Both the position numbers and the translations under genes were made by a program. Of a DNA stretch of 33,965 bases, positions 31,447 to 33,965 are shown piece by piece. Every line of letters begins with the position of its first letter. The first letter of the stretch is position 1. Origin of the DNA: an uncultured Saprospiraceae bacterium (GTDB lineage: Bacteria; Bacteroidota; Bacteroidia; Chitinophagales; Saprospiraceae). The notes under the pieces are model-generated. The model ran no database searches and was not told where the DNA came from. It was given only the letters and a program-made list of their open reading frames with translations. The DNA lies in the NCBI GenBank assembly GCA_937922815.1, contig CALAJP010000033.1, positions 1 to 33,965 of the forward strand. Direction: 5' to 3'.

Positions 31447-32013
31447 TTATTTCGAATTTTGATAGTCCGTCCAAGAAGTAGTTTTGTATGCTTCTTGATT
31501 AACATAATCCAATTCTTTTTTGAATTGAGGAACTTCCTTAAAACCCGGAGAAACCATTATTCTCTCCAATTTTTTGTTTAAGTAAACTACAGTAGGATAC
31601 GAAGCTCTACCGTCCATTAATGAATAGGCTAATTCATGGATTCCTCTTCTTCCTGCAGCCAAATGTTTAAATTCGTGACCATTCCAGTTTATTGACTCCT
31701 TTTGTTCAGCGTTGAATTTTACTGCATAAAAATTAGCATTTACATACTCGCCAATTCCCTTATCTGAAAAAGTTTTTTTGTCCATTACTTTACACCAATG
31801 ACACCAATCCGTGTATAAATCGATTACAATATCTCTTGGGTTATCAGCATGAAGCTTTATCGCTTCTTCCCAAGTGTACCATTTTATTCCTTTTGTTTCT
31901 TGCTTTACTTCAACAACTGACTCAGTTGGATTTTCTTCAGAGTTTGAACTACATGTGAAAGCGAAAACGAACGCTAAAATTGCCAATACTCCTAATCCTT
32001 TTACTATTCTCAT
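31447..32013 (-). CDS. Thioredoxin-fold lipoprotein
   Basis: A 188-residue envelope protein. The signal peptide MRIVKGLGVLAILAFVFAFTC has a lipobox-like ending (Cys21). A polar linker leads to a thioredoxin-like domain with the active site WCHWC (Cys71, Cys74) in YTDWCHWCKVMDKKTF, the form seen in DsbD/thioredoxin-like DUF255 relatives. YPTVVYL near 140 carries the cis-Pro. It probably acts as a periplasmic thiol oxidoreductase or reductant. It has its own terminator and lies upstream of the YHYH-SCO run on the same strand, so a link to copper or disulfide handling is possible but not shown. ATG at 32013. Confidence 0.88.
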   Translation of the reverse strand: MRIVKGLGVLAILAFVFAFTCSSNSEENPTESVVEVKQETKGIKWYTWEEAIKLHADNPRDIVIDLYTDWCHWCKVMDKKTFSDKGIGEYVNANFYAVKFNAEQKESINWNGHEFKHLAAGRRGIHELAYSLMDGRASYPTVVYLNKKLERIMVSPGFKEVPQFKKELDYVNQEAYKTTSWTDYQNSK

Positions 32014-32117
32014 AAATTTATTTTTTTTTACAATAACTATATTATAAACATAATTATCAAGTTCTATGTTTTGATATTAACAAAATAATAAGTTATTAAA
32101 CGAAATTTTAAGATATT

Positions 32118-32690
32118 ATGACAAAGGGGAGAAAGGTTGTTATCGCTGCTGGTGGTTCTTCAGGAGCTATTTATACTCAATTATTATTTGATAGGATGCT
32201 TGAAATTTCAGATCAATGGGAGCGAGTAGCGGTGGTTATGAGTGATAATGCTAAACTGAACTGGGAATTAGAGCTTGGTGAATTTGATGCTTCTAAATAT
32301 CAAAAATTCGATTTTTATGCTAAAAATGATTTTATGTCACCCATCGCTAGTGGATCCGCACAATACGAAACTATGATTGTTTGCCCTTGTAGCATGGGAT
32401 TATTGGCGAGAATTAGCACGGGTGTATCTAATGATTTGGTAACTAGAGCTGCTGATGTGGTATTAAAAGAAAGGCGAAAACTTATTTTAGTAGCGAGAGA
32501 AACACCATTAAGTTTAATTCATATCCGAAATATGAAAACGGTAACCGAAGCAGGTGGAATTATTTGTCCTGCAACTCCTTCCTTTTATTCAAAACCGCAA
32601 ACCGTAACAGAGGTAGCCCTTACGGTAGTGGACAGAGTACTTGATCTTTGTGGGTTCGAATTAGATACTTATCGTTGGAATGATAAGTAA
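32118..32690 (+). CDS. ubiX: Flavin prenyltransferase UbiX family
   Basis: A 190-residue enzyme that prenylates FMN to make the cofactor of UbiD-type decarboxylases. AAGGSSGAIYTQLLFD (11-26) is the FMN-binding GASGA-like motif. CPCSMGLLARISTGVSNDLVTRAADVVLKERRKL is the conserved core, and VARETPLSLIHIRNM contains the conserved Arg-Glu-Thr-Pro-Leu. PATPSFYSKPQT near 155 is also typical. Length is normal. ATG at 32118 is preceded by an AT-rich leader. No ubiD is nearby. It is divergent from the thioredoxin-like gene and followed by a terminator-like stem and an IS remnant. Confidence 0.92.
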   Translation: MTKGRKVVIAAGGSSGAIYTQLLFDRMLEISDQWERVAVVMSDNAKLNWELELGEFDASKYQKFDFYAKNDFMSPIASGSAQYETMIVCPCSMGLLARISTGVSNDLVTRAADVVLKERRKLILVARETPLSLIHIRNMKTVTEAGGIICPATPSFYSKPQTVTEVALTVVDRVLDLCGFELDTYRWNDK

Positions 32691-32968: not shown

Positions 32969-32986
32969 AACGTGAACTCGAGTAAA
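32969..32986. repeat. Left terminal inverted repeat of the IS982 derivative
   Basis: AACGTGAACTCGAGTAAA. It pairs with the right repeat at all positions but one (T/C at position 15). Confidence 0.85.
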
Positions 32987-32994
32987 AGAAAAGA

Positions 32995-33073
32995 CATAAT
33001 AGGTTAAAAGCGAACAAATTACGATGTTGTAATTGAGAGAAAACATTAATCGTAGCGGCTATAACCTATTATG
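32995..33073 (+). promoter_or_regulatory. Structured leader that pairs with the transposase start codon
   Basis: CATAATAGGTTA (32995-33006) is the exact reverse complement of TAACCTATTATG (33062-33073), and the right arm ends with the transposase ATG (33071-33073). Inside is a second perfect hairpin, AATTAC-GATGTT-GTAATT (33017-33034), and an alternative pairing of TACGAT (33020-33025) with ATCGTA (33049-33054). In RNA this would hide the start codon. Confidence 0.7.
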
Positions 33074-33497
33074 AACATACAATTTACAGAAAAGAAGCTA
33101 ATTGAAGTATATTCTGATATAGATGATTTATACTGTACCCGATGGTTTAACGTTTAAGTAAAAATCTAAAGGTTATAAAGGCGTTATGGTTGGAGATAAG
33201 GGGTATAAAACAAAATTATTTGAATGGTTTTATGAAAATAAGCTTCATATATTAACGAGACCTAGAAAGAATATGAAGAAATTACCTGTAGAAAATAAGT
33301 ATAATATTATGCTTAACAAACGTGGTTGTATAGAATCTGTTTTTGATATTTTAAGCTCAATATGTGATATTGAACATACTAGACATAGAAGTCCAACAAA
33401 TGCTTTTGTTAATATTTTTGCTGCTTTAGCTGCTTATCAACATATGGATCGAAAGCCTGCTTTCTTTGCCAAGAAAAATAATCGTTTGGCTGCTTAA
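33071..33497 (+). pseudogene. Truncated IS982 transposase with internal deletion
   Basis: The 5' fragment (33071-33157) reads MNIQFTEKKLIEVYSDIDDLY, then leaves the reading frame and stops at 33155-33157. The 3' fragment, in another frame from 33162, reads KSKGYKGVMVGDKGYKTKL, contains LTRPRKNMKK and ends with the RGCIESVFDIL...IEHTRHRS block. GDKGY holds an Asp and CIE the Glu of the DDE triad; the first Asp region is missing. About half of the protein is lost, so it cannot be active. An ATG at 33186 opens a 103-residue frame, but it lacks the first catalytic part and is probably not functional. Confidence 0.82.
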
Positions 33498-33498
33498 A

Positions 33499-33516
33499 TT
33501 TGCTCGAGTTCACGTT
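33499..33516. repeat. Right terminal inverted repeat of the IS982 derivative
   Basis: TTTGCTCGAGTTCACGTT, the reverse complement of the left repeat except for one base. It begins 2 bp after the transposase stop. Confidence 0.85.
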
Positions 33517-33544
33517 AAATTTAGAAAAACCTTACGTTGAAGTA

Positions 33545-33965
33545 ATGGCAAACCAAGACTTATTGCCTTCTTGGAGGGATATGTACAAGAAGAATAAAGA
33601 CAATGCTGTTCATTCAAGAAAAAGATCTAATTATATTAGTAATTTTAAGGAGTATGGTAATAGTGCTGCAACAGATCAATTTGTAATTCTCAAGGATAAA
33701 ACCAATGATACAGATTTGGAAAAAGTATTAAAAATAGATAATCAGTCTTTTATTGATGAAATAAACAAGGACGCAAAAACCTTCAGTACACCTATTAAAA
33801 ACGGACATAATTATAGTTATGCAGAAGCATTTGCAGGTCACTTACAAAACACAAAATATGAGACCGAGGACTATGATTATTTCAATGATAAAATAAAAGA
33901 AAATGTCACTGATGGCGATGTTCAGGAATTAATAACCAATCTCATCAACAACTCAGAAAACAAAG
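33545..33965 (+). CDS. Uncharacterised open frame running off the window
   Basis: From the ATG at 33545 the frame is open for 140 codons to the edge: MANQDLLPSWRDMYKKNKD, then a basic stretch (HSRKRSNYISNFK) and a long acidic, Asn/Asp/Lys-rich part (YETEDYDYFNDKIKENVTDGD). The frame also continues upstream through the right end of the IS remnant (NLEKPYVEV before the ATG), so the true start may have been removed by the element. There is no signal peptide or membrane segment in the visible part, and no family is recognised. Composition is hydrophilic and looks coding. It could be the 3' part of a disrupted gene. Confidence 0.55.
   Translation, partial: MANQDLLPSWRDMYKKNKDNAVHSRKRSNYISNFKEYGNSAATDQFVILKDKTNDTDLEKVLKIDNQSFIDEINKDAKTFSTPIKNGHNYSYAEAFAGHLQNTKYETEDYDYFNDKIKENVTDGDVQELITNLINNSENK

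Follow-up and report, generated by a model that had tools for sequence, protein, structure and literature searches.

A start-codon palindrome preserved in pairing across the IS982 family and the antisense RNA gene that it may represent

Introduction

The left end of a small insertion-sequence remnant in an uncultured Saprospiraceae bacterium (contig CALAJP010000033.1; 'the window' below means the whole 33,965-nt stretch analysed) raises the question of why a perfect inverted repeat should end exactly in the start codon of a transposase gene. The original prediction for this locus was that transcripts reading into the element from outside would fold, hide the start codon and so limit transposition. 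A different kind of control, by antisense RNA, is known for IS10 (PMC5006887), IS30, IS200 (PMC12594629) and IS256 (PMC10266640). In IS10, RNA-OUT is a 69-nt antisense RNA encoded near the left end, which ends at nt 47 and overlaps the translation start of the transposase (PMC5006887). IS200 combines an antisense transcript, art200, with a fold of the mRNA that conceals the ribosome-binding site (PMC12594629, PMC3196728), and in enterococci IS256 has a sigma70-driven antisense RNA over the transposase start (PMC10266640). Hairpins in the first 50 bp of Amoebophilus IS elements have been proposed to limit expression (PMC3196728). In P. furiosus, which has five IS982 copies, antisense start sites lie over transposase starts in data that were not split by family (PMC6640164).

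For IS982 itself the open papers searched mention neither a leader hairpin nor an antisense RNA, though an earlier mention elsewhere is possible; the original prediction had likewise been made unaware of any translation-blocking leader in this family. In the 2020 review of the family the start codon goes unmentioned, and its passages on promoters, expression and translation describe no regulation of the transposase (PMC7335449).

Results

The window holds a remnant of an IS982-family element

The 546-bp element (Table 1) proved to be an internally deleted, frame-broken remnant, from which most of the transposase gene is absent and in which the C-terminal DDE domain and good terminal repeats are retained. 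Its assignment to the IS982 family is based on terminal repeats that start with AC, as in the family (ACGTGAACTCGAGTAAA and TTTGCTCGAGTTCACGT), on the match of the transposase to PF13612 (2e-16) and on the 66% identity of its C-terminal part to an intact relative (G102/L019). The single intact transposase gene in an element of about 1 kb is lacking from the 546-bp window copy, and flanking direct repeats of 2-10 bp amount, judged by eye, to at most TAA on both sides. The reading frame of the N-terminal fragment reaches a stop after about 27 codons, and the genome assembly gave one match to the element, so that this is the sole copy found. As the transposase reading frame is broken and no other copy is present in the genome, no functional transposase is masked in the window, and the evidence presented below is carried by intact relatives.

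The neighbouring genes (31447-32690) are ordinary and encode a thioredoxin-like protein (PF03190/PF13899) and a PF02441-family flavoprotein. An open frame with no Pfam match (33500-33964) begins at the right end of the element, which may have inserted into or beside it.

Table 1. Features of the IS982-family remnant and of the palindrome at its transposase start (positions are those of the window).
Feature	Position	Strand	Basis or remark
IS982-family remnant, single copy in genome	32970..33515	+	terminal inverted repeats; DDE_Tnp_1_3 match of C-terminal fragment
Left terminal inverted repeat, ACGTGAACTCGAGTAAA	32970..32986	+	94% pairing, 32969-32986 with 33499-33516; AC start
Pyrimidine/U-rich tract, TCTTTTCTTTTA, directly after the antisense stem	32983..32994	-	possible antisense RNA 3' end
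5' arm (on the antisense strand, 3' half of stem)	32995..33006		inverted repeat, fold
Loop with inner hairpin	33007..33061		predicted native transposase start site here in relatives
3' arm ending with ATG (on the antisense strand, 5' half of stem)	33062..33073		inverted repeat, fold
N-terminal transposase fragment	33071..33142 (end approximate)	+	homologous to L019, L020
Weak antisense -7-like box, TAAATTGT, 4/6 positions	33079..33086	-	decayed or weak in window copy
C-terminal transposase fragment, 103 codons	33186..33497	+	PF13612 2e-16, PF01609 3e-9
Right terminal inverted repeat	33499..33515	-	pairing with left end

The 12-bp inverted repeat was found as described in the original prediction: its arms, CATAATAGGTTA (32995-33006) and TAACCTATTATG (33062-33073), match perfectly and are separated by 55 nt, and the repeat ends in the ATG (33071-33073). 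The inner hairpin that had also been proposed was recovered, with predicted pairs that include 33009-33011/33058-33060 and 33019-33025/33049-33055. On the sense strand the repeat folds with a minimum free energy of -20.3 kcal/mol (z -4.3) and on the antisense strand with z -6.1, values that were equalled by 0/200 shuffles in either case; a stem of equal score at the start codon was seen in 0/60 dinucleotide shuffles of the window leader. Rfam covariance models, RNA-OUT included, gave no relevant match in the window and none in 18 related loci.

Pairing is kept across the family while the letters change

Among the relatives are an intact copy of 301 codons from a different genus of the same family (L019) and two truncated copies (L020 and L021). 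An inverted repeat is present at the same place in these, in quite different letters (TGCTGGTTTTT/AAAAACCAGCA and AAAGATTGATTTG/CAAACCAATCTTT). Leaders were then gathered from Bacteroidota genomes, plasmids and viral contigs; among them are those of the named elements ISEfm1, ISLll1, IS982B, ISLgar3 and ISAba4, and of Pseudomonadota and spirochaete copies. Start codons of unannotated copies were assigned by hand. In relatives from Bacteroidota, Pseudomonadota, Bacillota and Spirochaetota the start-codon region pairs with a segment about 45-75 nt upstream, and the pairing segments have unrelated sequences from one element to another.

Pairing was scored between two segments, one 80-31 nt upstream and the other from -18 to +14 around the start, in 44 leaders less than 80% alike (relatedness was handled by this 80% identity cut alone). 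The mean pairing energy was -17.3 kcal/mol for an element's own arms and -9.1 kcal/mol when arms were swapped between elements. Pairing was significant against dinucleotide shuffles (p <= 0.05) in 32/44 elements, and in 24/44 the element's own partner was the best of all, compared with 0-4 of 38-39 for shifted windows and 0-1/44 for the starts of 115 other open reading frames. An unconstrained search gave a best stem that touched the start codon (+-5 nt) in 30/44, against 9.1 in shuffles. In a search confined to the start region, the 3' arm overlapped the start codon in 29/42 stems and lay within 4 nt of it in 9 more. Several elements (L054, L077, L087 and L106) had no clear stem. In L110 (a Leptospira noguchii plasmid), L032, L044 and L118 the 3' arm begins at the start codon or has it near its centre, and the stem thus extends into the coding region.

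Letters that change while pairing stays are expected of a structure under selection, and on this comparison the hairpin is a recurrent feature throughout the IS982 family, preserved in pairing with different letters. The original prediction had been made to depend on the conservation of the arms in other copies and on changes that preserve their pairing, and on this point it is borne out. These results are also what would be expected if the palindrome acted through the sense strand alone, with read-through transcripts folding, hiding the start codon and remaining untranslated while native transcripts, which would begin in the loop, avoid this fate. Preserved pairing in changed sequence, a 3' arm that contains or adjoins the start codon and a stable sense fold (mean z -3.55 across elements) all agree with such a sense-strand mask.

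Mismatches, stability and a U-rich tract point to the antisense strand

A hairpin of the sense RNA is expected to tolerate G.U pairs and to reject A.C. The isolated mismatches in tight stems of intact elements were counted against a background set by composition. In intact representatives there were 26 A.C and 7 G.T mismatches where composition alone would give about 3:2 (one-sided p = 0.019), a small sample whose pattern suggests action on the antisense strand, because each A.C of the sense strand corresponds to a G.U pair in the antisense strand. Loosely extended stems gave an unclear result. The pattern is thus the reverse of that expected if only the sense RNA mattered. The same asymmetry bears on the idea of a palindrome that works as DNA, either as an operator for the transposase or a host protein or as a cruciform. 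An inverted repeat near the end to which the transposase binds would suit this idea, but mismatches differ between the strands, and the arms are unrelated between elements and yet paired, whereas the terminal repeats share a common sequence; we regard a DNA-level role as very improbable.

Two further properties concern the same strand. The antisense strand was the more stable in 32/47 elements (p = 0.0015), and the antisense folds of ISAba4, ISLll1 and ISEfm1 were near-continuous stem-loops; for the inner loop alone, antisense folding was no better than sense by z-score. The nine bases past the antisense stem contain 61% U compared with 41% elsewhere in the leader (Stouffer 9.3), an enrichment to which the inner edge of the terminal repeat, rich in A, or the sense promoter may contribute. 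A stable antisense stem-loop with a terminator-like tail, as in RNA-OUT-type systems, is therefore present. A sense-strand mask leaves the U-rich tract unexplained. A stem followed by such a tract could also be a leftward intrinsic terminator, which would halt bottom-strand transcription before it reached the left end and would have no part in antisense control. Loops of this length (20-55 nt) would be unusual in a terminator, and the constant overlap with the start codon and the promoter at the antisense stem base described below would be left without explanation; a simple terminator therefore seems to us a poor candidate, if a somewhat better one than a DNA-level palindrome.

Antisense promoter signals lie in the first transposase codons

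The -7 consensus of Bacteroidota promoters is TAnnTTTG (PMC7366714). A perfect match on the antisense strand was found within codons 2-20 in 14/31 Bacteroidota elements, against 2.6 under synonymous recoding with the same amino acids and the gene's own codon usage, and 14 was reached in 0/400 simulations. Control codon windows elsewhere in the gene had no excess of the antisense box (z -1.2 to 1.0). In 8/30 stems the perfect box begins 12-15 nt before the antisense stem base, where about 0.07 would be expected from the background density in the gene body (0.0006 per position), and across 11 perfect motifs the position of the box tracked that of the stem base (r = 0.86), with three of the 11 sitting 18-25 nt from it. 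Codon bias was considered as the source of these boxes because GAC/AAC precede a conserved Lys, and was excluded by the synonymous recoding. As a separate observation, in the gene body of Bacteroidota elements (codons ~20-280) TAnnTTTG is found at none of 22,678 sense positions, against 14 occurrences on the antisense strand; its absence from the sense strand is perhaps due to avoidance of internal sense promoters, or to a codon effect.

Outside the Bacteroidota, the distance of the -10 hexamer from the stem base showed no significant peak in 15 stems, which makes the promoter evidence weaker there. The positional profile was replaced for these elements by the synonymous-recoding test, in which the antisense sigma70 score of 21-22 elements exceeded the recoded genes with z ~3.5 (0/100), or ~2.5 in a stricter run (1/150). 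A predicted antisense promoter near the transposase start is thus a feature of family members; the window copy matches the -7 box at 4/6 positions and its relative L019 at 5/6. The excess over synonymous recoding is not accounted for by a sense-strand mask, and with the reversed mismatch pattern and the U-rich tract it leads us to consider masking as the sole function unlikely. Taken together, the stability of the antisense fold, the U-rich tract and the antisense promoter indicate an antisense RNA gene.

A native transposase start is predicted in the loop

Sense promoter signals were also present in the leaders. In non-Bacteroidota elements, sigma70 promoters with a start 45-20 nt before the ATG scored 120 against 70 +- 12 in shuffles (0/60), and in Bacteroidota leaders perfect sense TAnnTTTG occurred 5 times where 1.1 were expected. 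The predicted start lies in the loop, so that the native mRNA should begin there and lack the 5' arm. Two consequences follow: the sense hairpin would be formed by read-through transcripts only, and the proposed antisense RNA would carry in its loop the complement of the native mRNA's 5' end. The first of these is the arrangement that a sense-strand mask would also need.

The exact sequence GTTACNACAC occurs in the loops of five distant elements (L023, L055, L056, L118 and L145), about 35-24 nt before the start codon, and is absent from most others. It is possibly the native mRNA 5' end and the recognition loop of the antisense RNA. As a conserved loop motif it was rejected: five elements match at 9/9 and the mean is hardly above that of shuffles, and for this reason it was not counted as evidence.

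Discussion

We consider it rather probable that the inverted repeat forms the stem of a small antisense RNA, encoded in cis and built on the general plan of IS10 RNA-OUT. From the sequence features, an antisense RNA gene laid out like RNA-OUT is the simplest account of the covarying pairing, the position of the start codon, the U-rich tract, the excess of promoter signals on the antisense strand and the signal for a start site within the loop; we infer that such an RNA is made, that it ends at the U-rich tract and that it represses. The window copy is in this respect a dead remnant with a weak promoter match.

In the mechanism that we propose, a bottom-strand promoter inside the first transposase codons would direct transcription from the stem base or a few nucleotides before it, giving an antisense RNA of about 60-90 nt that would form a long stem-loop and end in the U-rich tract adjoining the left terminal repeat. 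The native transposase promoter would straddle the 5' arm, with its predicted start in the loop. The native mRNA would then be complementary at its 5' end to the antisense loop and at its start-codon region to the antisense stem. Pairing of the two RNAs would prevent translation or lead to decay, an effect that would grow with copy number.

Sense transcripts reading into the element would also fold and conceal the start codon, since it is covered by the stem, and such masking may be an additional effect of the palindrome. The masking geometry of the original prediction is indeed present family-wide, with a 3' arm that overlaps the start codon or lies no more than 4 nt from it in 38/42 stems of the search around the start, and with the predicted native start between the arms; as the main reason for conservation, masking gives way to the antisense RNA in view of the mismatch counts, the antisense promoter and the U-rich tract. 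More broadly, and with less confidence than for the antisense stem itself, we suggest that most IS982 elements, in at least four phyla, may carry one fast-evolving palindrome that serves both as an antisense brake on the native mRNA and as a start mask in read-through transcripts.

Compared with RNA-OUT, the predicted IS982 RNA similarly covers the start codon and would end about 25-45 nt from the left end, with its loop facing the predicted 5' end of the native mRNA. It differs in belonging to another transposase family, and here the start codon lies within the base of the stem itself; no sequence similarity to RNA-OUT is claimed. IS200 has an unrelated tyrosine (HUH) transposase, and the two roles found there appear to be filled in IS982 by one palindrome. 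The antisense RNA of IS256 resembles the one proposed here in lying over the transposase start; it belongs to another family, and the passages that describe it do not report conservation of a start-codon palindrome (PMC10266640). The Amoebophilus hairpins are listed for ISCaa2, 9, 10, 14 and 15; the IS982 member ISCaa5 is not among these, and the passages on the hairpins contain no comparative or strand analysis (PMC3196728).

The arms change fast, so each lineage would have a private antisense code, and the RNA of one element would leave unrelated IS982 elements that share its host cell unsilenced. In Acinetobacter, Enterococcus and Bacteroides, resistance genes are mobilised and activated by members of this family. 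If the proposal is true, a family-wide antisense RNA conserved in structure would explain how IS982 elements limit their copy number, and the family would serve as a model for tracing, across phyla, how an antisense RNA and its target coevolve.
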